DNA from: Tichowtungia aerotolerans
Lineage (GTDB): Bacteria > Verrucomicrobiota > Kiritimatiellia > Kiritimatiellales > Tichowtungiaceae
Length of the DNA: 64,000 bases
Direction: 5' to 3'
Assembly (NCBI RefSeq): GCF_009905215.1
Contig: NZ_CP047593.1
Coordinates: 186,001 to 250,000 of the forward strand
The position numbers and the translations under genes were made by a program. Positions 15,525-58,442 of the stretch are shown here, piece after piece. Position 1 is the first letter of the stretch. The number at the start of each line of letters is the position of its first letter. Under the pieces are notes generated by a model. The model saw nothing but the letters and a program-made list of their open reading frames with translations. It was not told the origin of the DNA and made no database searches.

Positions 15525-18500
15525 TCAATCGTTTACTTCGAGCTGAAAATACCCGGAAACCCGATCAACTCTCACGGTATCGGACCGGTCGCTTGCCCCA
15601 TAAATTCCCGACAGAACGGGAGTCCAGCCACCGCTCAAATCCGGAGCAAACATCAGATTGTAGCGACGACGCGCCACTCCCTGCCACCGAAGCACCAGCT
15701 CACCCGCCCTGCCCGGAACGAACAGGCCGGTAATAGCCAGCCGGGACTGGGGATCCCGCGGATCGGTTCCGCAACGATACTCATCATAATCGGACGCTCC
15801 GTCCCCATCAGAGTCGCCCGTCCCGTCAACCGCGGAAACCCAGCCGAAGTGCTGCAGCTCCCACTCGTCCGCAATCGCATCGCCGTCCACATCCGGATCC
15901 ACAACGACCACATCAAAAGAACGAAAAGCACTCCACTCCCCAATATTACCAGCCTCGTCGATAGCACGAACCTGCCAACGGTGTTCCCCCGCATCGAGCG
16001 TTTTCGAAAATTCAGTCGCAGAACCGGCATCATAAACCATCGAATCGATCCGAATATGATACCCGGAAACGCCGCTTTCATCGGCAGAAGCGGTCCATTC
16101 AAAGCCGACCGAACTCCCCAGCCCGGCCTGCCCATCAACAGGGGCCTGCAGAATCGGCGCCGCCGGAGCCGTCCGATCCGCAGAAAAGTAAAAATTAACT
16201 TCCCGATCCGCACTCAGGATTCGCCGAGAGGTCGTAACAGTTCCTCCCTGGAAGGTCACCGAAACATAATAAAACAGATCGTCCTTCGCCATAAAACTGT
16301 ACGCCCCGTTCGCATCGCAAATCTCCTGACCCACGAACCCTACCGAGTTCGAATAGCTGACCGTAAGCCCCGGCTCCGGCTCTCCATTCACATGAACCAC
16401 CCCCTGGAACAGATAGGTGTCAGGCGTCCCTCCCATATCCTTAATTTTCAGAGTGAACTCATCCGTATCAACAACCGGCCCCTCTGAACTGTCTCCCGAC
16501 AGCGTCAGAACAAAATCCACCTCATGCCCCAGCGGCGCGGAGCCGTCCACATCGACCAGAAGCAGCCCATTGGTCAGACTCTCATCAAGAGCCATCGACC
16601 CCATCGCGAGCTCAGGCTCAACAAGGGTAACGTACGGATCCGAACTGCTGAGCACGGCGGTAATATTGCTGCAGCCGAACAAATCCAGATTTTCCAGACG
16701 AAGCTCCAGCCCGATCCGCTCTCCGGGCTCCACATCGCCATACCCGTCACCGGAGGTCCCGTCGCGGCCGTCATCCACCACGACAACCTGCGAGTCCACC
16801 AGCCAGGGTGCAGCCTTGCTGACCACCCAGTAAACCGGCTCATGATTCGCCGGAAGCGACACCGATCCCGACGGCGCAACAATCCGTTTTTCGGTTCCCA
16901 TCATACTGACCTGCAACATTGGCGTGCCCGCCGCGACCGGCAACTCCACACTGAACGGAAACTGCGCATCCTCAGTCGCCCAGGCAGTATAAACCAAATC
17001 GCCCGCCCGGTTTTTAAACGAATAGAGCCGAACCGGATTAGGATAATCGCGCAGGCGCGCAACCGGCTGTGCACCTGCCAAAAGACTGGATGCCGTGGCA
17101 AACGAACCCACTACCTTCGTGCAGCGCGTCTGCTGCGCGCCGACATCCTGAGCTCGGCGCAGGACGTTGTAATCAAGCTTCAGATCGAAAAAGCTGAATA
17201 AATTTACACACTTAACATTCAGATCCCGACGAAAGCTCATCATAATAATCAGCTCGCGGGCGGTCCAACGGGCGTATTCCTCTTCGGTCACCAGCTTGCG
17301 AGTCCAACCAAACTCAGTCCAGAAAGTCGGCAGACTCTGCTGTCCATAAGAGTCCAGCACCCTTTTAACCGCATTAAGCCGGGGAACCAGATCCGGTTCC
17401 GGCGGAGTCTGGTGACCGGTGCCGTTTGGCGTTGTTTGCCACACCGGATAGGGATGCGTGCTCATTGCGTCCTGACGGCCAATCATACTGTCCGGAGCTT
17501 CCAGCAAATCATCAAACCAGCTGTCATAGATCCCGGCCAGACAGCCCCCGATAAATTTTGCATCAGGATTACCAAGTTTAACCGCCTCGTTTTGCAGCCG
17601 ACCGAGCATTTTCGCTGCCGCGACAGCCCCGGTACGTGTGTAATAGGGAAAGAGGTTTATCTGGTTGCTGTTGTTGGGCTCATTCCATGCCTGATACCAC
17701 GTGACCAGATTTGTGAGTGTGGATGCCACCGTCTGGTGATACGCCTGATACTCATCATAGTAATCCGGAACCGGAGGATAACGGTTCCCCGCGTTGTTAT
17801 TGGCCCATTTCGGGCAGCCGTCGGCGGTCATGATGATTTCGATGCCGCCGGCCTTGAGGGTTTCAAGCATCGAAATATAATAAAAATCAATCGGGCCGTT
17901 TTCGACCGGCTGACGCCAGGGCCATTGCGCGTTAGTAAGAACCGTCCAGCGGATTCCCATTTTCCGCATCAGGTCAATATCTTCCGCAACCGGCTCCGCG
18001 CGCTGCCCTTCTGTTCCCATATAAGCCGGGAACCCGAATGCACCAAAAATTGTATCATCAACACCGAGCTCGGGATTCTGCCCTCGCAGGATAATGACAT
18101 CCTGATAGTCCAGCAGTGTCAGCGGGTCTGCATGATCCGCAACCTCCAGTCGATAAAACCCCGCATACTGCGACGACAGATCAATCGTTGCAACTCCGCC
18201 AACAACAGGCTCAGCACCGTCCGCATGAACGGAACCGTCAAACTGATCGACGAGAAGCCACTCGACGGCAGAAACAGTTCCGCTGACTGCGGTTACATCA
18301 ATCATCAAATCGTCCGTCGTCGACCAAACCGGCTCTGTTTTATCCACCTCGATCGTCAGCCCGGCGGCCTGCGTAAACTGCGCATTGATCCGCAACTCTT
18401 CAAGAAGAGCCCGCTTGTACAGGTACGGAGGAATCCCCCGCTCAACCGCTACATAGAAAGCCGAAACACCCGAGGGAATATTGACGCTTAACGTCTGAGA

Positions 18501-29095: not shown

Positions 29096-29785
29096 GTTGG
29101 AATCTTAAGCATTTTATCCTGCCATTTTAATCAAATCCTGGTTCTTAGCCTCACATTGCTACTTCAACGCCTCTGGCACCGCCCAGCTTTCCGCCGCCTT
29201 CTTCGCCATCAAAATTTTCCTTATTTTCCAATGTTTTGGAAATTGGCTCACAGAGCCGACTCTATATTTCCAATCCCGCAGGAAACAATATACCGAACAA
29301 CTTACAGGGATTTGGGGAAACCCGAAAGAATAGACAGCAAAAAAGACTTGTAGTGAGTTTCTCTACATTTTGACCGCAAAAGGGTTCAATCATCGATAAA
29401 AGTTCGCATGGTGTCCGGTCAAGATGCACAGGGGAGGAAGGAATGCCAACTTCTGGACTAATGGTTCGCATTGCCATCAAGAAAGGCAACCATTCGAGAT
29501 GCAACAGGGGATGAACTCTGTAGAGAACGGAGACCCGAGCCTTTGGCGAGCTGGACTGGCGACTTTCGACGGCAACAAAGTGCAATCGGAGGCCAAAATT
29601 CGGCAAGAAGACCACGAAATCAGCTCACGCTGCGGATGGAGATTTGGGAACGTCCTATTATTGACGAAAACAGGCAGTAAAATGAAAAAAGCGAACCCAG
29701 GAAGAGTTACCGTTCCCGCTGGTCTCTTCTTTTCGGGAATACGAAAAGCACTTTCGCCTGCGGCTCAGGTCGCTGTAAGAAAACT
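29096..29785. other. Gene-poor stretch of the accessory island
   Basis: No open frame here has a ribosome site plus recognisable sequence; the longest frames are low-complexity or antisense-like. It contains one copy of the dispersed TTCCAA palindrome (29226-29241) and leads into the tRNA-like fragment at 29786. It looks like degraded accessory DNA. Confidence 0.5.
29226..29241. repeat. Dispersed palindrome copy, 16-bp variant
   Basis: TTCCAATGTTTTGGAA is a member of the 15-bp TTCCAANNNTTGGAA family with one extra spacer base. It is the leftmost copy seen in the window. Confidence 0.6.
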
Positions 29786-33862: not shown

Positions 33863-34915
33863 CTATTCGAAATCGGACGGGCGGCTTGAGCAGAACTCAA
33901 TCAGTCCGGGCAGTGATGTCGCAGGCATGCCGCGCCAGAAGATCATCCACTGGCTGGTCGTGTAATGCCCGTCCGCCTGGCGGTCGTACCATTGGTTCAC
34001 TGAATTGCCGACCCGCGAACGCCAAAAGAAGGACGCATGGTGCCGGCACATCTCATTCCACAGCTCCTGCGCCAAACCTTCGCCCCGCGCTTCGGGCCCC
34101 ACCGCAAACTTGGAAAGATAGAGCCCTTCGCCCTGCTCTTCGAGCAACATTGCACCGCGGTAGTTTTCTTCCAGGTACACCTTGGTCACAGCATCCAGCG
34201 CACCGGCCCGCGGCTTCCTCTGAAAGCTTTCCTCGAGCAATCTGGACAGCTTCGCTTTTTCCAAAGCCTGAAAATCCGGGGCTATAATCACGGATCCTTT
34301 CCGGAATACGGTCCCGGCTCCTTTGACGGTAAAAATCTCTTCGAGCAGATTCATGGGCGATGTGACCGAAATATGTGTTCCCGGTCGTGCCGCCAGCAAC
34401 GCGGCGGCAGAATCGGCCAAAGCCTGTTCCTGCTCCGTCAAAATGACCGGATTCTGTTTCTGGGTGTAGTAATAATCGATTTCAAAACCGCCGGCAGCCC
34501 GGATGAAGTGAACCCGTTTTCCAATGGCCGGAATCATTCTTTCCAAGCACTGGAAATCGGCAGGGCCTGCTCCAAATGAATTCTCCAAGGTTTGGAAAAA
34601 CACCGGAACGTTGTCTTTAGAGTTTCCAAGGTTTGGAAACTCGGCTTTTTCGAACAGCGGGCTCCGGGCGAGCAGCGCCCATTTGGCGTCGATATCGGAC
34701 CCGCACAGAACAACTGCGGGGTGCAGGCCGAGACTGATCAGAAAATGCAGATCAAACGCCAGTGCATCCACTCCCTGCTCCAGACTTTCAAGATCCGGAA
34801 CCAGCAGCGCAAAGCAGGCGGTGTCGGCGGACTGAAATTTATTGAGGTAGAACTCGTACTCTTCCCTCCGCCCGATACCGTCGAGAAACAGTCGTATGGT
34901 CTTATTCAAAAGCAT
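33863..34915 (-). CDS. N-acetylglutamate synthase-type protein (degenerate kinase-like domain plus vertebrate-type NAT domain)
   Basis: A 350-aa protein probably making N-acetylglutamate for arginine synthesis. The N-terminal two-thirds is a shortened amino-acid-kinase-like domain (FLDGIGRREEYEFYLNKF, ISLGLHPAVVLCG, ISVTSPMNLLEEIFTVKGAG). The C-terminal ~140 residues match the vertebrate-type NAT fold (YLSKFAVGPEARGEGLAQEL acetyl-CoA loop, SFFWRSRVGNSVNQWYDRQA, WMIFWRGM). Related NAGS/kinase fusions are about 440 aa, so roughly 90 residues of kinase domain are missing and kinase activity is doubtful. Four copies of the TTCCAA palindrome fall within residues ~93-133 (FPNLGN, FQTLEN, FQCLER). 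It lies 40 bp after the parvulin gene, probably in the same unit. Confidence 0.78.
   Translation of the reverse strand: MLLNKTIRLFLDGIGRREEYEFYLNKFQSADTACFALLVPDLESLEQGVDALAFDLHFLISLGLHPAVVLCGSDIDAKWALLARSPLFEKAEFPNLGNSKDNVPVFFQTLENSFGAGPADFQCLERMIPAIGKRVHFIRAAGGFEIDYYYTQKQNPVILTEQEQALADSAAALLAARPGTHISVTSPMNLLEEIFTVKGAGTVFRKGSVIIAPDFQALEKAKLSRLLEESFQRKPRAGALDAVTKVYLEENYRGAMLLEEQGEGLYLSKFAVGPEARGEGLAQELWNEMCRHHASFFWRSRVGNSVNQWYDRQADGHYTTSQWMIFWRGMPATSLPGLIEFCSSRPSDFE
34519..34638. repeat. Cluster of four dispersed-palindrome copies inside a gene
   Basis: TTCCAATGGCCGGAA (34519-34533), TTCCAAGCACTGGAA (34541-34555), CTCCAAGGTTTGGAA (34583-34597) and TTCCAAGGTTTGGAA (34624-34638), all within 120 bp of the kinase-like domain of the acetyltransferase gene. 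The last is a perfect palindromic 6-3-6. Confidence 0.8.
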
Positions 34916-41557: not shown

Positions 41558-43952
41558 GACTCTCTTTCCGCTGGATGAACATTTTCCCCAAAGAAACAAA
41601 GAGAACGAGATAACCGGCGCATTGCATATAGAAAAACAGCTTGGACGGAGCATACCACAGAACCACCTCATGCATACCGGCCGGAACATCGACTCCCTGA
41701 CAGATAAAGTCGATTCGTTCAACCTTCGCGGGCTTTCCCCTCACTGATGCTTTCCAGTCCGCATCCCATTTTTCGGCAGCGCGCAACTGTGCCGGGGCGT
41801 CTGCTGAAACACGCAGTTTCACTTTGCCCGGACGATACGCGAGCACTTCTGCCACTCCGATTTCTGCACGGGGCAACTGTCCAACTGCTGCCAACGCCTG
41901 CTCATCCGGCAGCGGATCAACCGGAGCGGTCACAGCATAGCGCGGCGAACTGTTCAGCAGTTCAAACACCGCATGCTGCCCCGTCGCAGAAGGCACCACC
42001 TTGAATTCACCGGCCTTAACACCCTGAGTCAGATCATAGGCAAACACTTTCCTCGCCTGCCCCGTCAGCTGGCGTTCCGCCTGTGACGGCCCCAACAGAT
42101 ATTTTACCGCGGAAAACCGCCACATATTAAGCGGATTGCGCTGTCCAGTCTCAAGAAAGGCCTTGTAGTCATTCGCCATACGCGGCATGTCAGAAAAGTT
42201 AAAGGTCGAAATCTTATTGTACGGCAGCAGATAGCTTGTCCAAATGCCGTAGATGCCCTGCTGTGACAACAATGCAACCCGCTGATGCCCCAGACCCTTT
42301 TTGAGGAAATCTGTCAGAGCATTGGCCTCGATATAGCTGCGCGGCATTTCCTTCACATAATGCTTAGACAACTTAACCGCGTCGGCGGCCACAATCAGCA
42401 CCAACACTGCCCCCAGAACCATTTTCCAATGTTTGGACAAATTGCTCAGCCTTTTTCCAAGGCTTGGAAAACTGAATACAGCAAAAACCGCAGTGGCAAT
42501 TGCCGCCATCAACGACGCATGCCACAACGCAGCAATTTTGTTCGGAACAATGGTTCGGGCGACCTCCTGCGGCCAGCCCTGTGCAACAAACCGGCTGATA
42601 TCTTCGACGTTATTCATCGTCAAACTCAAAGCCCAGAGAACGAACAGAACCAAAATTCCGGCAAGGAAATAAAAGAAAGGCTTTAGGCTTTGGGTATTAG
42701 ACCTTTGATGTGCTGAACTCTGAACGCTGAACCCAGAACTCCTAAACAACGTATCGACTCCGTACGCCGTCAGAATTGCCAAGCAGACCTGAAACACCTG
42801 AAGGAACTTGTTGGGGTTGCGAATGCTGTTGACCACAGGCAGCTTGTAGAAGATAGAATACAATGGAAAATATTTCCCGAACGACAACACCAGCGCAGCC
42901 AACGCCGAGCCTCCCCAAAAAAGAATTTCCGCGCGATTCTTCGACCGGCGACAGGAAAAAAGAGCAAAGAGAGCAAATACCACCGGAATTACACCGATAT
43001 AGGTGTTCTCCAGCTTAAAATTCTGGAAACCCTGCTTTGTCTGCTCCCAGCCCGGCGAACGGCCCATCCGACCCCAGTAAGGTCCTTCGGGTTCATTGCT
43101 GCGCCATCCAGTGTATCCCGGAGCCACAAAAGCAATCATTTCCTCGGGAGGAAAGCTCCACTGGGTCACATAGTCCCACTTGGCCTGCTTATTTTCGGTC
43201 TGCATCTGGGCAGAGCCCTTCACGTGCTGCTTATAGCCACTCATTAGTGACCCGCTAGCAAACAAAAATGCAACCACTGCCGCTGGAACCAATACCTTCA
43301 GCCACCTGCCCCATTTAAAGCCCTGTTCTTTCCATAAGTTGAAAACTAGATACGCTCCCGCAAAAAATGCAAAAAACAATGCACTATCCGGCTGCTGAGC
43401 AAACATTAATCCAACACAGCTCCCCCACAGTAATGTCGCAACCAGAGAACCGGCAGCCGCCCGAGCAACCGGAAGCAGAGAACAAACGAAATATAGGATA
43501 ACAAATGGTTTCAGAACATGTCCGGCATACAGCAAAGTCAGATTGCTCCCGACGAAAAAAGCAGTCAGGCCAGCAAGAACGGCAGATGCCAAGCCCAACC
43601 TTTTTCGGAGTAATCCGATTGCAGTCAGAACAGCAGCGGCAAAACAACCCAAAATATAGACTATATTATTCCACAAAACTGGCGGAAGAAGGGTTTTCAA
43701 AAGTGTAGATGTTTGCCCTGCCGGCATGGCCGGAGCACCGAGAAGACGTACACTTTTCCAGCGGGGGGCAACTTCCCGAAGAACCTGTGCGACGCCTCTA
43801 TCCGCCCCGGAAATAGCAGCATCGGACGAAAACAGCACCCCTCCGCCCCAAACAAACGATCGTAAAAAAAGCAATGAGAGCACAAAAAATAATACGAACA
43901 CCAGCCATTGATCCCACCGGCCTGAATTAGTTTGCTCTTTTAATTTACTCAT
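41544..43952 (-). CDS. Large multi-spanning membrane protein, YfhO-like
   Basis: An 802-aa inner-membrane protein with about twelve helices and a C-terminal periplasmic-type domain ending in one more helix (LFFYMQCAGYLVLFVSLGKM). The architecture and features such as SSDAAISGADRG, TAYGVDTLFRSSGF and the late VDVPAGMHEVVLWYAP resemble YfhO-type GT-C proteins, some of which glycosylate teichoic acids or lipids. No firm GT-C catalytic motif was identified. It overlaps the sulfotransferase gene by 8 bp and the GT10 gene by 14 bp. Two TTCCAA palindromes fall in its middle (FPSLGK, SKHWK). Confidence 0.75.
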   Translation of the reverse strand: MSKLKEQTNSGRWDQWLVFVLFFVLSLLFLRSFVWGGGVLFSSDAAISGADRGVAQVLREVAPRWKSVRLLGAPAMPAGQTSTLLKTLLPPVLWNNIVYILGCFAAAVLTAIGLLRKRLGLASAVLAGLTAFFVGSNLTLLYAGHVLKPFVILYFVCSLLPVARAAAGSLVATLLWGSCVGLMFAQQPDSALFFAFFAGAYLVFNLWKEQGFKWGRWLKVLVPAAVVAFLFASGSLMSGYKQHVKGSAQMQTENKQAKWDYVTQWSFPPEEMIAFVAPGYTGWRSNEPEGPYWGRMGRSPGWEQTKQGFQNFKLENTYIGVIPVVFALFALFSCRRSKNRAEILFWGGSALAALVLSFGKYFPLYSIFYKLPVVNSIRNPNKFLQVFQVCLAILTAYGVDTLFRSSGFSVQSSAHQRSNTQSLKPFFYFLAGILVLFVLWALSLTMNNVEDISRFVAQGWPQEVARTIVPNKIAALWHASLMAAIATAVFAVFSFPSLGKRLSNLSKHWKMVLGAVLVLIVAADAVKLSKHYVKEMPRSYIEANALTDFLKKGLGHQRVALLSQQGIYGIWTSYLLPYNKISTFNFSDMPRMANDYKAFLETGQRNPLNMWRFSAVKYLLGPSQAERQLTGQARKVFAYDLTQGVKAGEFKVVPSATGQHAVFELLNSSPRYAVTAPVDPLPDEQALAAVGQLPRAEIGVAEVLAYRPGKVKLRVSADAPAQLRAAEKWDADWKASVRGKPAKVERIDFICQGVDVPAGMHEVVLWYAPSKLFFYMQCAGYLVLFVSLGKMFIQRKESHAAD
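42424..42469. repeat. Two dispersed-palindrome copies in the YfhO-like gene
   Basis: TTCCAATGTTTGGAC at 42424-42438 and TTCCAAGGCTTGGAA at 42455-42469, 31 bp apart. The coding strand reads them as SKHWK and FPSLGK. Confidence 0.75.
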
Positions 43953-47845: not shown

Positions 47846-48945
47846 CTCCCCCTCCTAAAGAAACGATACCGGGAAGGAAACACCAGCAGGTGCACAAAAA
47901 ACAGCAAGAAACTAAAGGCCCCTTTTATGGTTGGGGCAAACGCATAGTGAATGCAGTGTTGGCAATGTTCTTCGATCAGCTCTTTCCGGTATTGCCGGTT
48001 CTCTTTCGAGTGAAACAGCTTGGCAGCGTTCGAGGAGTCCAACAATCCCAAACTTTTACTTTGCGTTGCACAATAATAGATTTTTCCGGATTCATCTACC
48101 GTAGCATCACGCCATTGCCAAAAACAATCTGCCAGCCTTACGTGTCCCTTTTGTTCGAGATAACGGTAAATTGAATAATAAGTGAACTTCTGCTGCCAAT
48201 TTCGATCCGTTTTATCAATAACCTTCCCGAAAAAGAACTCCATCGCAGATTGCCGGGCAGCATCAGAACTCAGCACACTGAACTCATCTGAGTAATGCAG
48301 ATTATGAATCCGGCGATTTGGAACAGCCAGACGATAAAAAACCGGGATCCCTCGTTCCACACAAAACGTATCCAGCTCGGCCAGAAAATCCGCATTATAT
48401 CTGGATACCGTACACCCCACGCTGAACTGATGGCAATACTTGTTCGGAAAAGCCAGAATCTGATCAATAGAGGAAATAACCTGGTCAAAAGCCGGGATCC
48501 CTCGGCAAGCCCTGTACACAGGGCCAACACCATCCAACGATAGCGAAAGTGAAAAAACAATTCTTCGCTCCTCACACAAAGCCCGAATTTTCTGGATCAC
48601 AGAAAGCAATCGGTCAGTTAATGACCCATTGCTGATCATATGGATCGCCTTGAGCTTAGGCAGACGAAGCAACTCAGCAACCACCTCAGGAAGTTCGGGT
48701 ACCAAGGTGGGTTCTCCACCGTTAATACCCACTGACTCCACCTTCTTAAACAAGTCATTCTTCAGAATTTCACGTACCCTTTCTGCTGTCATCTCCACAT
48801 TAGGAGCACGAGATGGCACAGAGCAGGTCATGCAGGCCGAATTGCACTTTCCGGTAATTGGAAACTGTAGAATCCGAGGATAAAGACGGACTCCCGGAAT
48901 TAACGACAATACCCGTCCCATTAACAGCCTAAAAAAACGAATCAT
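47842..48945 (-). CDS. Radical SAM protein with SPASM-like C-terminus
   Basis: A 367-aa iron-sulfur enzyme. The radical SAM cluster motif is CNSACMTC (Cys-x3-Cys-x2-Cys). ESVGINGGEPTLVPELPEVV gives the GGE motif. A C-terminal cysteine region (CFWQWRDATVDESGKIYYCA, then EEHCQHC) suggests auxiliary clusters. Radical SAM proteins occur in glycan operons as sugar dehydrogenases/epimerases or as modifiers, but this one's reaction is unknown. It is coupled on both sides by 4-bp overlaps, to the flippase and to the pyruvyltransferase, so it is integral to the pathway. Confidence 0.88.
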   Translation of the reverse strand: MIRFFRLLMGRVLSLIPGVRLYPRILQFPITGKCNSACMTCSVPSRAPNVEMTAERVREILKNDLFKKVESVGINGGEPTLVPELPEVVAELLRLPKLKAIHMISNGSLTDRLLSVIQKIRALCEERRIVFSLSLSLDGVGPVYRACRGIPAFDQVISSIDQILAFPNKYCHQFSVGCTVSRYNADFLAELDTFCVERGIPVFYRLAVPNRRIHNLHYSDEFSVLSSDAARQSAMEFFFGKVIDKTDRNWQQKFTYYSIYRYLEQKGHVRLADCFWQWRDATVDESGKIYYCATQSKSLGLLDSSNAAKLFHSKENRQYRKELIEEHCQHCIHYAFAPTIKGAFSFLLFFVHLLVFPSRYRFFRRGR

Positions 48946-51586: not shown

Positions 51587-53325
51587 GGTTTCGGGATTCG
51601 TTCAAAGATTTCCAGCGTGGTATGAGCCTGTCCAAAGTCTGGAATTTCAGATGTCTTCCGGTAGCTTTTCTCTAAAACAGATCGTAGAGCTCTCCAATGT
51701 TCGGAAGAAAGTTCTCCAATGCCTGGAGACTCAATGGTCAACCCGTAGCCGCTGAATGCCGCCAGCGGCGCACGGCCTTTCGACAACGTCTCGATCATCA
51801 TCTCTCGATTCAGCAAATTGAACTGTTCGGCCTGCTCATGTGGCATGTCGGGATAATAGCAGAATGGCCCCATCTCCATACCGTGCGGAACTCGAGCCCC
51901 GGCCTCAACGGCCAAATACGTATCCTGAGTCAGCAGGAATCCGCCCTCACCCAGTTTTTCACGAATCTCAGCCCCGGCCTTTTGCAACACAGCTAAATCC
52001 GGTGCCTCTTTAAATTTCCACCAGATCCGGTCGCGACCGCGAACCATCCAGTCCTGATTGATCGGAGAAGAAAAAGAAGCTGCCGCACAAACCAAAAGCA
52101 CCGCCCACGCCGTCCGTATCTGATATTTTTCGGACAGGCGAGGAACCAGAACACAAACTAATGCGACACAAAGAACGGGATAAATGATCACCTGATAATC
52201 GTCATATGGAAACGGCGCAGAAAAATGGACCAGCGAAACACCCGCACCAACCATCCACAGCAACGAAATAAAACTGTGAGCAAAAGGTGATTCCGCCTGA
52301 TTCGCCTGCTGAAGCAACTCAGTCAGACGCGGGCGGACCTCCCACTCAAACTCCTCCCCGGCACGCCGAACATGCCGCTGATGCCTGCGAAACAGAAACG
52401 CCGCCGCACATCCCGCCGCCAAAACAAAATACGCCTGAACAAAACGGGAAACGAACCCAACTTTCAGCGCCGCCAGCTCCAGCAGCCCGCCGGGACTGCG
52501 GCCGGCATGATAGCCGAACAGCGCAAAATGCGTACTCTCTGGAGCAAGGAAGAAAAAGCCGACCAATCCGACCAGCAGAACAAAACCGCCGCCCAGCCCG
52601 AACGCAAACCAGGCCGACTGAAAAGTGCCGAGTACCGGATTTGGATGGCAGACAACAGCTGTTCCCTCTCCAAACGGATAAACCTTCTTTCGGTTACAAA
52701 CAAGCCACAGTCCGGCAATCGGAAGAGCAACACCCGCAGACAATCGCGTACAGGCCGCCAGCGCCAGCAGAAAACCACCCCAGAATGAAGCCATGGCCCC
52801 GCGCTTATGATCCGAATAGCTCAGCGCCACAAAGCCGGCAGTCAGAAAAAAGGCACACAACCCATAAGTTTTCACAATCGTCGTAAAATAACTCTGATAG
52901 ACATTCACTCCCGCCAAGGCAAAGGCAGAAAATGCCGCCACCTTCCAATGACTGGAAAAATCAGAAGGCCCCGACGCAGCCTGCTTCCAGTATTTGGAAG
53001 AAATCCGTCCGGCCAACCACGCTGCACATCCGGCCGCCGCCAAACCGAACAGAGCCGTAATCATCCGGCCGCCGGCCACACCCAGTTTTCCAATGATTGG
53101 AAAAAGTACACCGTAGACATAGGGAAGAGCCGGCCCCTGCGTAAACATAAAATCGCGATACAAAACGCGACCTTCTGTCACCTGCCGGGCTGCATACAAA
53201 TACCACCCTTCATCCTGATTCAAATCGCCAAGAAACAGATTTGCGGTACTGAGAAGAACACTCAGCGCAACAGCTGCCAACACTAAAAAAATCCAAGCGG
53301 TTCGTTTCATTTTCAAGTTTATCAT
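51583..53325 (-). CDS. GT39-like membrane glycosyltransferase (GT-C fold)
   Basis: A 580-aa membrane protein with some ten helices. The GT-C catalytic acidic loop is near the N-terminus: FLGDLNQDEGWYLYAARQVT, matching the Asp-Glu of ArnT/PMT-type transferases. The C-terminal soluble region follows the last helix. Either the ATG at 53325 or that at 53310 (MKRTAWIF) could be the start; neither has a good ribosome site. It is upstream of and coupled to the polyprenyl-phosphate GT2, which would supply its donor. Six TTCCAA palindromes lie within the gene and are translated as ISSKYWK, FSSHWK, FPIIGK, SEHWR, SPGIGE and IPDFGQ. Confidence 0.85.
   Translation of the reverse strand: MINLKMKRTAWIFLVLAAVALSVLLSTANLFLGDLNQDEGWYLYAARQVTEGRVLYRDFMFTQGPALPYVYGVLFPIIGKLGVAGGRMITALFGLAAAGCAAWLAGRISSKYWKQAASGPSDFSSHWKVAAFSAFALAGVNVYQSYFTTIVKTYGLCAFFLTAGFVALSYSDHKRGAMASFWGGFLLALAACTRLSAGVALPIAGLWLVCNRKKVYPFGEGTAVVCHPNPVLGTFQSAWFAFGLGGGFVLLVGLVGFFFLAPESTHFALFGYHAGRSPGGLLELAALKVGFVSRFVQAYFVLAAGCAAAFLFRRHQRHVRRAGEEFEWEVRPRLTELLQQANQAESPFAHSFISLLWMVGAGVSLVHFSAPFPYDDYQVIIYPVLCVALVCVLVPRLSEKYQIRTAWAVLLVCAAASFSSPINQDWMVRGRDRIWWKFKEAPDLAVLQKAGAEIREKLGEGGFLLTQDTYLAVEAGARVPHGMEMGPFCYYPDMPHEQAEQFNLLNREMMIETLSKGRAPLAAFSGYGLTIESPGIGELSSEHWRALRSVLEKSYRKTSEIPDFGQAHTTLEIFERIPKP
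51630..51728. repeat. Three dispersed-palindrome copies, 3' end of the GT39-like gene
   Basis: GTCCAAAGTCTGGAA (51630-51644), CTCCAATGTTCGGAA (51692-51706) and CTCCAATGCCTGGAG (51714-51728). Each keeps the CCAA/CTGG-type core with one or two changes. All are in coding sequence. Confidence 0.65.
52943..53102. repeat. Three dispersed-palindrome copies, 5' part of the GT39-like gene
   Basis: TTCCAATGACTGGAA (52943-52957), TTCCAGTATTTGGAA (52985-52999) and TTCCAATGATTGGAA (53088-53102). The 15-bp length and spacer of three are constant. Confidence 0.8.
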
Positions 53326-53419: not shown

Positions 53420-53466
53420 CTCCAATGCTTGGAAAGACTCGGTCTCAATTCTTCCAACATCTGGAA
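53420..53466. repeat. Two dispersed-palindrome copies upstream of rubrerythrin
   Basis: CTCCAATGCTTGGAA (53420-53434) and TTCCAACATCTGGAA (53452-53466), in the divergent gap between the GT39-like gene and the rubrerythrin gene. Apart from these and an AT-rich stretch (TATAGTTAAAATC) before rubrerythrin, nothing else was seen in this gap. Confidence 0.75.
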
Positions 53467-54223: not shown

Positions 54224-54238
54224 TTCCAATGTCTGGAA
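54224..54238. repeat. Dispersed palindrome overlapping a start codon
   Basis: TTCCAATGTCTGGAA contains the ATG (54229-54231) of the pseudouridine synthase gene in its centre. The mRNA hairpin it can form would sequester the start codon. Confidence 0.75.
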
Positions 54239-55188
54239 AAACCGCAGAAGAATCCGGAAAACGGCTGGATGCCTGGCTTGCTGAAAGTGAGCCGGGCCTG
54301 TCGCGTTCGCGTTGGCAGGGCCTGATAAAAAACGGGAAGGTCACCGTAAACGGCGGTTCCGTGAAATCGAACTTTAAACTTCGCTCAGGAGACTTTGTGG
54401 AATGGACGATTCCGGATCCGGTTCCGACCGAAACCCTTCCCGAAAATATTCCCCTGGACATTCTGTTTGAAGACCGCCACATCATCGTGGTGAACAAACC
54501 CGCCGGACTGGTGGTGCATCCTGCCGCAGGGAATGAGAACGGAACGTTGGTCAATGCCCTGCTTCACCACTGCACCGACCTGACCGGTATCGGAGGCGAA
54601 GAGCGCCCCGGTATTGTTCACCGGCTCGACAAAGACACCAGTGGCGTCATGGTGATCGCAAAAACCGAAACCGCCATGGCCGAACTGGCGCGGCAATTTA
54701 AAAAACGGGAAACAGAAAAAGAATACCTGGCAATTGTGCGCGGCGCACTGCACCCGTCATCCGGCTACATCGAAACAACCATTGGGCGACACCCGATCCA
54801 CCGAAAAAAGATGGCAGCCAACATCAAGCGGGGCCGGCGGGCTGTGTCGAATTACAAAACCGATGAAAAACTAAAAAACGCATCACTGCTGCGCATCCGC
54901 ATCGAAACCGGACGGACCCACCAGATCCGGGTGCATATGGCATTTTTAAAACACCCGATTCTTGGAGACAAGCTCTACGCACGCCGTCAACCGACCGATA
55001 CCTGGCCCGACCGACAAATGCTCCATGCAGCCAAACTGTCGATCATCCATCCCAATACGCGCAAAAAAATGACGTTTCAGGCTCCTTTGCCGGCAGACAT
55101 GAAGGCCCTGCTTGAGCAACTCAGAATTAATCCTTCTGAGAAATCCCAATTACCTTACGAAACTCAATCGCCTCAGACGCGAGGATAA
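54229..55188 (+). CDS. RluA/RluD-family 23S rRNA pseudouridine synthase
   Basis: A 319-aa enzyme isomerising uridines in rRNA. An N-terminal S4 RNA-binding domain (GLSRSRWQGLIKNGKVTVNG) is followed by the catalytic domain with the HRLDKDTSG motif in GIVHRLDKDTSGVMVIAK (catalytic Asp), and then IETGRTHQIRVHMAFLKHPI. RluD is the best guess because of the S4 domain and length. The ATG lies inside a TTCCAA palindrome and lacks a Shine-Dalgarno. Its 3' end overlaps the convergent transporter gene by 62 bp. Confidence 0.93.
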   Translation: MSGKTAEESGKRLDAWLAESEPGLSRSRWQGLIKNGKVTVNGGSVKSNFKLRSGDFVEWTIPDPVPTETLPENIPLDILFEDRHIIVVNKPAGLVVHPAAGNENGTLVNALLHHCTDLTGIGGEERPGIVHRLDKDTSGVMVIAKTETAMAELARQFKKRETEKEYLAIVRGALHPSSGYIETTIGRHPIHRKKMAANIKRGRRAVSNYKTDEKLKNASLLRIRIETGRTHQIRVHMAFLKHPILGDKLYARRQPTDTWPDRQMLHAAKLSIIHPNTRKKMTFQAPLPADMKALLEQLRINPSEKSQLPYETQSPQTRG

Positions 55189-57358
55189 ATGCCAGTGGCG
55201 GCATATCTTTGGTCACTTCCATCAGCGAACCATAATAGCGGCTGTAATCTTCGAGAGTCTCCTCTTCACCCGGCGGACGCATGCCCATAAAAACCAACCC
55301 GGCATCTGCTGACGATTGGCGAATAATATCGAAATAGCTGGGAAGCTGCTTGATCAGCACCTCTGCTTCCGCAGGAATCCGCTGTTCTTCAATAAAGGTT
55401 CCCAACCGTATCTGAGCCGCCTCGCGCTCCGCTTCGGTTTCGACAATGGTTTTCACGACCAGCCTGGACTGCCGCCATGCCGGACTTTTCTGAACCTGAT
55501 AGGCTAACGTAAGAATCAGGCCGATATTGGATGCGTTGCCCCCCCACCAGACATCAATCGTATCCGCCTCTTCAGGCACTTCATTCTCGCTTTCCCGGAA
55601 CAGAATCAGATTGCGGTTGGTTCGACAAACCAGACGTATCAGTTCCGCAAAGCCTTCAAAATTCGAACGGTTTTCCGTGTCACCCAGCAGGATGGTGTTG
55701 GGCGTCAAGGGTCCATACCCATAGGCGCGCACCAGAGATTTTGCCCCGGTCAGCATATCCGGGGCCGGAAAAATCTTAACCAGCGCATCCACTTCACGCT
55801 TTCGCAGATACTCCCGCAGAGACTCTTCCGTGCTTTCCACTTTCTCTGCGGACCAGTCTTCTACCGGCAGGATGCTCGCCACCGTCAGGGCGCTGCTGTG
55901 CCGCGCCAGAGAGTGGGCCATTTCCACCAGATGCCAGCGCGATCTGGGTGAGCCGCTCAGCGCCAGAATGCTGGGCCGCCACGTCCGTTCATCCGGCTTC
56001 AACCGGCTGAGCCGCTGAACGGCAAAGCGAACCAGCAGCGTTAAAATGCCGTAACGCATGTCCGCCCAGTGCGCATTGAGCTGCCGGCGTTTAATTAAAT
56101 AGAAAATAACAGAGGTTACCAAAATCGCAATCAGGGTGGCCCCGGCGTTGATCATCAGCATCACAGCAAAACAGCCCGCTGCCCCCAGCAGGGAAATACC
56201 GCACGGCACATTGAACTTCGGCCTCCACGCCGGACTTTCAATCAGGCCCTCCAGTCCCGCGGAGAGGTTGAGGAGTCCATAGGACAGCAAAAAGAACATC
56301 GACAGAATCGGGGCAATCAGATTGAGATCCCCCAGCAGAACAGCCGCCAGAGCTACGATAAATGAGAGGATTGTGGCAATGCGCGGATCCGCTTTATCTT
56401 TGCCAAAACCGCGGCCGATAAACCGTGGAATCACACGATCGCCCGCCAGCGCCTGCAGCATGCGCGGCGCGCCGAGCAACGACCCCAACGCACTGGATAG
56501 CGAGGCCGCAAACACCCCGATCACTATCAGAATGCCCCAGCGCGCCATCGTCGACATAATGTTCAGGTCCACCAGAAGGACATCCAGATTGGACACCTTC
56601 ATCGACAAGAAGATCGGAAGCGCCATATAGACCAGATAGCCCGTTACAATGGCGGCCAATGTTCCACGCGGAAGCGACTTCGCGGGGTTCTTCAGATCCC
56701 CTGACATGCCAAGTCCGGCCTCAATCCCGGTCACGGCCGGGAAAAACACAGCAAAAACAACCCAGAAACTTTCCCGGGCCGGAACAACCGTTTCGGCAGA
56801 CAAAGACAGTGCATCCGGAGGAGGAGACCCCATGAAAAACGAAACCAGCGACAAACCAATCGCGACCAGGATTCCAAACTGAACTTTCAATGCCAAATCC
56901 GCCGAGATCGTCGCCAGCACGGTCAACACCGTCAGGGTTCCGGCCGAAATCACCTTGGCCACGACCGCCGCATCCAGCATCGGCAACGGATTCCCCAGTG
57001 CCATCACGGCTTCAGTAAACCCGGCAATATAAAACGCCACCCCAAAAGCGCGCGCAAAAAAAAGCGGCAGCCCGATGGCCACTCCGGCCTCCAGGCCAAG
57101 CGAACGGGATATAATGTAATAAGCGCCGCCGGTTCCCACCTTCATATTGGTGGCCATCGCCGAGATGGACAACCCGGTCAGGAACGTAATCGCCGTGGCA
57201 AGCGTCACGATCAGCAGGGTGGCAGGCAGTCCGACACTGCCGAGCACCCACCCAAAGCGCAAATACATTACAACACCGAAAATCGTCAGAATGCTCGGCG
57301 TGAACACGCCCTTGAACGTACCAAATGCGTATCCCTGTTTTTTTTCGTCTTCAGCCAT
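55127..57358 (-). CDS. Cation-chloride cotransporter-like (APC superfamily) membrane protein
   Basis: A 743-aa transporter. The start at 57358 follows GGAAACGG; the longer upstream frame lacks support. It begins AFGTFKGVFTPSILTIFGVV and has GTGGAYYIISRSLGLEAGVA, the unwound first-helix and substrate-site regions of SLC12/APC proteins. The core has 12 helices, then a ~280-residue cytoplasmic C-terminal domain (LALSGSPRSRWHLVEMAHSL, TIDVWWGGNASNIGLILTLA) as in Na-K-Cl cotransporters. It may move K+/Cl- or amino acids; the ion cannot be fixed. Its 3' end overlaps the convergent pseudouridine synthase gene. Confidence 0.9.
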   Translation of the reverse strand: MAEDEKKQGYAFGTFKGVFTPSILTIFGVVMYLRFGWVLGSVGLPATLLIVTLATAITFLTGLSISAMATNMKVGTGGAYYIISRSLGLEAGVAIGLPLFFARAFGVAFYIAGFTEAVMALGNPLPMLDAAVVAKVISAGTLTVLTVLATISADLALKVQFGILVAIGLSLVSFFMGSPPPDALSLSAETVVPARESFWVVFAVFFPAVTGIEAGLGMSGDLKNPAKSLPRGTLAAIVTGYLVYMALPIFLSMKVSNLDVLLVDLNIMSTMARWGILIVIGVFAASLSSALGSLLGAPRMLQALAGDRVIPRFIGRGFGKDKADPRIATILSFIVALAAVLLGDLNLIAPILSMFFLLSYGLLNLSAGLEGLIESPAWRPKFNVPCGISLLGAAGCFAVMLMINAGATLIAILVTSVIFYLIKRRQLNAHWADMRYGILTLLVRFAVQRLSRLKPDERTWRPSILALSGSPRSRWHLVEMAHSLARHSSALTVASILPVEDWSAEKVESTEESLREYLRKREVDALVKIFPAPDMLTGAKSLVRAYGYGPLTPNTILLGDTENRSNFEGFAELIRLVCRTNRNLILFRESENEVPEEADTIDVWWGGNASNIGLILTLAYQVQKSPAWRQSRLVVKTIVETEAEREAAQIRLGTFIEEQRIPAEAEVLIKQLPSYFDIIRQSSADAGLVFMGMRPPGEEETLEDYSRYYGSLMEVTKDMPPLAFILASEAIEFRKVIGISQKD

Positions 57359-57364
57359 AACCGT

Positions 57365-57379
57365 TTCCAATCTCTGGAT
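57365..57379. repeat. Dispersed palindrome just upstream of the transporter start
   Basis: TTCCAATCTCTGGAT, with one mismatch in the right half. On the transporter strand its end overlaps the GGAAACGG ribosome site, so a hairpin here could affect translation. Confidence 0.6.
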
Positions 57380-57474: not shown

Positions 57475-58275
57475 ATGACCGATCGCGAACAATTTCTGGA
57501 CAATGTGACCGCCTTCCTCGAATACAAAAAAGAGGAAGGGTTCCAAACATTGGAAATCTCGCCGGAAACCCGCGCAATGCTTGCGCCGGCCAAACAAAAA
57601 CCGGCCGCTGCAAAGCCGAAACCGGCCGCTCCGGCCTATCGACCCGCCCCGCCGGCGCCTGACCCTGAACCCTCTCAGGCACCAGGCGACGACATTGTAG
57701 TCACCGGAAAAACTCTCGAAGAAATCGCAAAACAGATCAGCACCTGCACCGGTTGCGGACTGCACGCCTCGCGCAACAAAACCGTGCCCGGCGAAGGAAA
57801 CGGTCATCATCCCGACCTCATGTTTATCGGCGAAGGCCCCGGCGCGGACGAGGATGCGCAGGGCCGCCCGTTCGTCGGTGCCGCGGGCCAGCTGCTCACT
57901 AAAATGATCGGAGCAATGGGCTACACCCGCGATCAGATTTTTATCGCCAACATCGTCAAATGCCGCCCTCCGGGAAACCGGGTTCCCCTGCCCGACGAAA
58001 TGAGCGCCTGCACCCCGTACCTGCTCAAACAGATTGAGCTGATCCAACCGAAGATCATCATCGCGCTTGGCAAAACCGCCGTTGAGGGACTTCTGCATAA
58101 GCCGGTGGCCATCACCCGCTTTCGCGGAACATGGTGCAAATATGAAGGCATCGATCTGATGCCGACCTTTCATCCGGCCTACCTGCTTCGCTCGCCTGGC
58201 AAAAAACGCGAAGCGTGGGATGATCTCCAATCCGTCCTTGCCAAACTCGGGAAAACACCGCCCCAGAAAAATTAA
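57475..58275 (+). CDS. Family 4 uracil-DNA glycosylase (iron-sulfur)
   Basis: A 266-aa base-excision repair enzyme. The core from about residue 75 has the 4Fe-4S cysteines: CTGC, then KC in [18 protein letters not shown] and a fourth 17 residues on. Motif A is [19 protein letters not shown] and motif B is [11 protein letters not shown]. The N-terminal ~70 residues are a Pro/Ala/Lys-rich extension ([16 protein letters not shown]) found in many PVC and clostridial members. One TTCCAA palindrome (57541-57555) is translated as FQTLE. It removes uracil arising from cytosine deamination. Confidence 0.95.
57541..57555. repeat. Dispersed palindrome inside the uracil-DNA glycosylase gene
   Basis: TTCCAAACATTGGAA is a perfect 6-3-6 palindrome read in frame as Phe-Gln-Thr-Leu-Glu. 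Confidence 0.8.
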
Positions 58276-58427: not shown

Positions 58428-58442
58428 TTCCAAACCTTGGAA
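58428..58442. repeat. Dispersed palindrome upstream of glnS
   Basis: TTCCAAACCTTGGAA is a perfect palindrome 42 bp before the glnS start. It is the rightmost copy seen. The remaining spacer (58276-58427) shows no other feature. Confidence 0.8.

Follow-up and report, generated by a model that had tools for sequence, protein, structure and literature searches.

A genome-wide family of 15-bp palindromes in Tichowtungia aerotolerans and its class, read as predicted operators of one DNA-binding protein

Two palindromes lie at the starts of 2 genes in a stretch of 64,000 nucleotides of the Tichowtungia aerotolerans chromosome (contig NZ_CP047593.1, positions 186,001 to 250,000), the whole of which is referred to here as the window. 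The question they raise is whether they act on those genes, as supposed in the original prediction, by which a hairpin in the mRNA or a bound protein could switch translation or transcription. The features concerned are the following, in window coordinates, with palindromes given without strand and scored by the site matrix described below.

54224 to 54238, palindrome TTCCAATGTCTGGAA, score 24.9, with the ATG of the RluA/RluD-type pseudouridine synthase gene inside it
54229 to 55188, plus strand, pseudouridine synthase gene (S4 + PseudoU_synth_2), ATG at 54229-54231
55127 to 57358, minus strand, SLC12/AA_permease-type transporter gene, ATG at 57358-57356
57365 to 57379, palindrome TTCCAATCTCTGGAT with one arm mismatch, score 21.1, 6 bp upstream of the transporter ATG

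The placement itself is as had been claimed: TTCCAATGTCTGGAA spans the pseudouridine synthase ATG, TTCCAATCTCTGGAT lies beside the ribosome site of the transporter with its TTGGAA arm in the position expected of a Shine-Dalgarno sequence, and by eye a strong Shine-Dalgarno sequence is absent at both starts. The 2 open reading frames (ORFs) are convergent, with a 62-bp overlap (window 55127-55188). The observation is real but mis-framed, since the 2 copies are a corner of a genome-wide palindrome set and not a start-codon switch. Members of that set are probably operators of one sequence-specific DNA-binding protein, predicted from the sequence to be dimeric and to bind cooperatively along one face of the helix. 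Observed directly are the motif, its numbers and symmetry, its helical phase, its use in genes, its recurrence at fixed columns of codons, and the restriction of high counts to one class among the sampled genomes.

The family is described by TTCCA-R-N-N-N-Y-TGGAA (TTCCARNNNYTGGAA), which has 893 exact matches in the 3.88-Mb genome, 837 of them with C or G at the centre; the same pattern read backwards has 1. The consensus, of 15 bases, is TTCCA-R-N-S-N-Y-TGGAA with T- or A-rich edges, and its core is two-fold symmetric, having R..Y beside the arms and C or G in the centre. Only a spacer of 5 bases between the arms is enriched (194), the other eleven lengths from 0 to 11 giving 1-5 each, and in this genome sequence conservation stops about 3 bp beyond the arms. 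The site matrix, used with a cut-off score of at least 11, was trained on an 864-kb sample of the 3.88 Mb, namely the window and 40 stretches that measure 20 kb each; counts from this genome refer to that sample unless stated. The matrix gave 431 raw matches, against 2 for a column-shuffled palindromic control matrix, and 426 sites after overlap removal; the window holds 23 sites, against 0-6 across 20 dinucleotide shuffles. A literature search did not find the literal 15-mer nor, in the titles and opening abstract lines of the papers listed, such a motif, and one Pontiella paper (PMC7356697) is without the strings "motif" and "palindrom", so that the family, judged by literature search alone, seems to be unpublished. 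Two other repeats turned up alongside. CCTCC-N3-GGAGG occurs 15 times against 0.6 expected, perhaps as terminators, and G108, a genome of another family, has 52 occurrences of the backwards control pattern, there a different repeat.

To place the sites relative to genes, we used a home-made codon-usage caller, whose start positions are approximate and whose calls are poor in short GC-rich loci. By these calls, 291 of the 426 sites are coding, at a density of 0.38 per kb, and 2 lie at edges, while the intergenic ones divide into 77 in tandem gaps (1.76 per kb), 30 in divergent gaps (1.22) and 26 in convergent gaps (1.53), densities similar enough that promoter-bearing and promoter-free gaps appear to be used alike. 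Placement on translation starts does not hold as a rule, there being 8 sites over 722 gene starts and no peak. The profile has 4 sites in the bin from -20 to 0 and 9 in that from 0 to +20, whereas each 20-bp bin between -120 and -20 holds 17-19 sites and a bin inside genes about 5. The copy at the RluD start is present (score at least 10) in 0 of the 11 same-genus relatives compared, and by eye the aligned start codon position is a start codon in several relatives too. With neither enrichment at starts nor conservation of this copy, the specific role at translation starts is not sustained, and the copy looks like a family site that happens to cover an ATG, its position incidental. For the transporter start, conservation has to be read in the light of the N-terminal 400 residues, which among 14 genus members find a good match only in the own genome and a partial one in G011.

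These numbers also bear on the idea that the palindromes are ordinary regulator operators, serving as a transcription or translation switch at the 2 genes, which we regard as improbable. An intergenic density about 4 times the coding density and the rise upstream of starts speak for it, as do genomes G057 and G402, which have about 115 copies each and in which most of the arrays examined are intergenic or lie past the final called gene. Speaking against it are the majority of sites in coding sequence, a convergent density that equals the divergent one, and the start-codon copy that is not conserved.

The spacing of neighbouring sites follows the turn of the DNA helix. Adjacent spacings cluster at 22, 31-32, 40-43, 52-53, 62-63, 73-74 and 82-83 bp, and then at 92-95, 103-105, 112-114 and 125-126 bp, with a period of 10.4-10.5 bp. 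Spacings of 15-200 bp, 127 in all, give a Rayleigh Z of 77.1 at 10.5 bp, against a maximum of 10.0 in 10,000 sets in which every spacing was jittered by up to 10 bp. The phase is present whether both sites are coding (n = 70, Z = 47.0), both are intergenic (n = 47, Z = 25.4) or the pair is mixed (n = 10, Z = 5.3); it persists at 200-300 bp (n = 34, Z = 13.5) and fades at 300-500 bp (Z = 2.4). Register over several spacings is found in G010 (13 spacings, Z = 10.0) and G036 (7, Z = 6.5), and G048 has 31 or 32 bp in 32 of 38 spacings, a fixed three-turn spacing that is by itself no test of periodicity. By eye, the linkers are unrelated in the own genome, G048, G010 and G036 (19 stretches), so unit duplication does not account for the spacing series.

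From this pattern we infer binding by a protein, its dimeric and cooperative nature, and an architectural role. One protein would have hundreds to thousands of chromosomal sites in some members of the class, with close neighbours kept in helix register in the genus of the window, and in some other families at a fixed three-turn spacing or at several turn-multiples. Its bound dimers would lie on one face of the DNA, touching directly at spacings of 2 to 5 turns and otherwise making contact across a bend or loop; the phase is visible to about 300 bp and then fades. The outcome would be a chromatin-like pattern along the chromosome rather than a gene-by-gene switch.

The original prediction left a choice between a hairpin and a protein, and the protein half is the one that fares well. 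Helical phasing, the symmetric R..Y core and positional conservation favour a bound protein, while the mRNA hairpin is at most weakly supported. The bare 19-mer at the RluD start does outdo 198 of 200 shuffles in folding, as palindromes must, with -4.0 kcal/mol and z = -2.19, and the 21-mer at the transporter start has a folding z of -1.64; in the surrounding 60 and 56 nt, respectively, that hairpin is not formed, with z of 0.40 and -0.15 against shuffles. Among coding copies, sense-strand cores with A..C, which breaks an RNA stem, number 55 against 50 with G..T, which keeps it (p = 0.70), and that equality is not what selection for a transcript hairpin would leave. Tandem intergenic copies go in the opposite direction, with 20 G..T against 7 A..C (p = 0.019), which is a hint. 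Since helical phasing belongs to DNA, an RNA hairpin element working in the transcript is scarcely credible as an account of the family.

Sites inside genes appear to be selected. Against synonymous-codon shuffles, in two codon-usage classes with 20 shuffles each, coding sites number 244 where the mean is 113 (max 130) and 39 where it is 17.9 (max 24), an excess of about twofold. In an alignment of 30 FolP loci, with sites counted at a score of at least 8 unless stated, 9 of the 14 genus members have a site at column 42, 9 at column 77, 13 at column 87 (10 when the score must reach 11) and 11 at column 168; of the 13 sister-family members, 7 have one at column 87 and 6 at column 112, and FolP of G057, G050 and G046 has none. 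The printed blocks (16 of the 30 sequences) are gap-free, with the arms constant while the centre varies. At column 42, the protein reads FQxLE in 8 of the 9 genus members with the site, the own genome having FKSLE, and FLDME, FLALE, FFDPE, FLAVE or FVDPE in genus members without it. The sister-family RluD likewise has recurring sites (score at least 10), at +358 in 7 of 14 and +619 in 8 of 14.

The other sites in the window are listed here from the transporter outward, again without strand.

57541 to 57555, palindrome in the coding sequence following the transporter, score 23.3
58239 to 58253, weak match, coding, score 11.9
58428 to 58442, intergenic palindrome, score 23.6
53452 to 53466, site upstream of rubrerythrin, score 20.2
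53420 to 53434, site upstream of rubrerythrin, 32 bp ahead of the 53452 site, score 16.9
53088 to 53102, site in a 580-aa ORF, score 29.2
52985 to 52999, same 580-aa ORF, 42 bp from 52943, score 17.7
52943 to 52957, same 580-aa ORF, score 21.9
51714 to 51728, same 580-aa ORF, 22 bp from 51692, score 15.4
51692 to 51706, same 580-aa ORF, 62 bp from 51630, score 16.1
51630 to 51644, same 580-aa ORF, score 14.4
48849 to 48863, coding site, score 17.4
42455 to 42469, coding site, 31 bp from 42424, score 28.5
42424 to 42438, coding site, score 23.9
34624 to 34638, fourth of 4 in one coding sequence (34519-34638; spacings 22, 42, 41), score 26.2
34583 to 34597, third of the 4, score 24.2
34541 to 34555, second of the 4, score 22.5
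34519 to 34533, first of the 4, score 17.8
34259 to 34273, further site in the coding sequence of the 4, score 22.2
29226 to 29240, intergenic variant with a 6-base spacer (TTCCAATGTTTTGGAA), score 19.3
17861 to 17875, weak match, coding, score 11.6

How far the family extends was surveyed among 387 genomes, all from the phylum of the window. At least 50 copies are found in 36, all of them in the window's class, and the highest count elsewhere is 9. Within genera the distribution is patchy, with 174 copies in G120 and 3 in G299, and with 110 in G288 and 106 in G393 as opposed to 2 in G275. No substitute palindrome with comparable counts was found in 20-100 kb samples of motif-poor genomes, in tables that have small sets on top (G051, 7 vs 0.16) and that for G010, G019 and G053 are spoilt by masked N runs. 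A plasmid collection gave no match to one 51-base query.

Among viral contigs, 18 new loci were found, of which 3 are relied on, the rest being few-site, coding or like other repeats.

L209:3041-3354, viral array of 11 sites upstream of terminase genes, with a portal gene on the contig
L210:2793-3023, viral array of 9 sites upstream of terminase genes
L214:657-760, viral array of 4 sites upstream of terminase genes, with a portal gene on the contig

The first two exceed the largest array seen in a cellular genome (7), and their spacings are all 22, 31, 32 or 42. Four viral-contig scans gave 9, 6 and 5 stretches with linkers of 15-17, 25-28 and 5-8, respectively, and 2 with linkers of 18-24.

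Some cellular arrays have a layout of their own. Those of G057 at L193, L190 and L191 have common linkers, with an outer flank common to two, and look like dispersed copies; in L193 the spacing alternates 31/32 exactly. The arrays of G132 and G146 (L204:7089-7256 and L206:3696-3801) are built symmetrically, 30-31-bp spacings being flanked on either side by 22-bp ones.

Several results weigh against operators of one cooperative protein. The fourfold intergenic excess leaves room for a regulatory share. G018 and G019, the genomes richest in copies at about 2,000 each, are unphased (n = 87, Z = 0.56) despite a near-same consensus, and motif-rich G014 is unphased too (n = 14, Z = 1.1), so the recognition sequence is common while the array architecture is not, and cooperativity would not everywhere be tied to the motif. 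G023, G024 and G025 show only 2-3 close spacings. The shared linkers of the G057 arrays and a tandem 31-bp copy in G132 point to duplication as the way in which some arrays grow. Genomes of the genus differ about sixfold in copy number, and those of the sister family range from 1 to 2,106 copies, a spread that is odd for an essential architectural role. Positional conservation was examined in two genes, of which FolP was picked for its three sites. Lastly, no binder was found among the families compared (Lrp/AsnC, NrdR and MarR).

Some of these points suit a DNA-uptake or self-recognition signal, by which the motif would mark own DNA for uptake or sparing and accumulate in core genes by molecular drive. 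DNA uptake sequences have about 1,000-2,000 copies, are in core genes and are lineage-specific, and the present family is like them in all three, with hundreds to about 2,000 copies, in housekeeping genes such as FolP at recurring columns, and a patchy distribution within the class. Genes of atypical codon usage also have half the site density (0.21 per kb as opposed to 0.42), and the unphased G018 and G019 are nonetheless dense. Uptake sequences, however, are not known to be two-fold symmetric or, singly, palindromic, and we know of no helical phase in them; such a signal would not predict the symmetry seen here, nor the phasing found in the own genus, in the phage arrays and in G010 and G036. 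We consider it unlikely, though worth keeping in mind.

A mobile palindromic repeat, REP/BIME- or MITE-like, spreading by insertion or ectopic conversion, would fit the G057 arrays, several of which share linkers and an outer flank, and the tandem copy in G132. REP/BIME repeats have a conserved unit that is longer than the palindrome and lies between genes, and the G057 arrays are partly like them. In the own genome, the flanks past about 3 bp are unconserved and most sites are coding, unlike REP/BIME repeats; the FolP sites stand at fixed codon columns in gap-free blocks; and the spacing is a helical series, not a single unit length. For the family as a whole, this origin is very improbable.

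Operators of a dedicated protein, the reading we prefer, have parallels in known systems. The palindrome of Ss-LrpB is one of 15 bp, and the boxes of NrdR have a 31-32-bp centre spacing. In the matS/MatP and Noc systems a dedicated chromosome-organising protein reads palindromes that are dispersed, in far fewer copies and with a regional distribution; here the copies are many more, and no gradient is seen away from the origin inferred from skew (rho -0.06 to -0.15, p = 0.34-0.73). HIP1 of cyanobacteria is a highly iterated genomic palindrome that is low or replaced in some lineages (PMC4390886), and the present family is like it in both respects. HIP1 differs in being an unbroken octamer linked to methyltransferases, whereas the family here is an interrupted 15-mer, helically phased in some lineages. 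Lrp/AsnC operators have helically aligned sites 2 or 3 turns apart centre to centre, with dimers on one face and DNA wrapping (PMC2995911), and the spacings here of 22 and 31/32 bp follow that two-or-three-turn rule, with 42 and more occurring also. The difference is that there are hundreds to thousands of sites here, and that in the own genome they are mostly inside genes. NrdR has paired boxes with helix-phase dependence (PMC12051234), a likeness in pairing; the difference is that NrdR represses ribonucleotide reductase genes.

Lrp was considered first as the binder because its operators obey the two-or-three-turn rule, and was rejected because it does not track the motif. PF01037 finds a match in 52 of 58 genomes, some of them motif-poor, but none in motif-bearing G027, G032 and G042, and the helix-turn-helix is by eye nearly identical in the sister genomes G019 (2106 sites) and G015 (11), in a comparison from which 2 of 20 extracted frames (G003, G010) were wrong and left out. 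NrdR was rejected as well, TIGR00244 being matched in 26 of 26 genomes, motif-rich and motif-poor, 25 of them above cut-off. MarR_2 (PF12802) has 2-16 matches per genome in the motif-rich and motif-poor groups, with no visible contrast.

It is possible, and we put it forward tentatively, that the palindromes amount to a sequence-coded chromatin. A dedicated protein would read the 15-bp palindrome in core genes and between genes, at positions that number from hundreds to thousands and that in some lineages are in register with the helix. Selection for the palindrome would be strong enough that proteins adapt to it, and phages, presumably of these hosts, would have the same sites in large arrays upstream of their packaging genes. 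Bacterial nucleoid proteins are thought to be mostly loose DNA readers, and it is difficult to make out their rules from sequence. In the present case the rule is apparently written in the genome, as to which bases, what distance and which face. Palindromes beside a few genes may accordingly, as a caution, belong to a chromosome-wide pattern. Cooperative binding by a genome-wide protein would become testable from sequence alone, and the class offers natural contrasts for what the sites do, between phased and unphased genomes and between motif-rich and motif-poor sister species.

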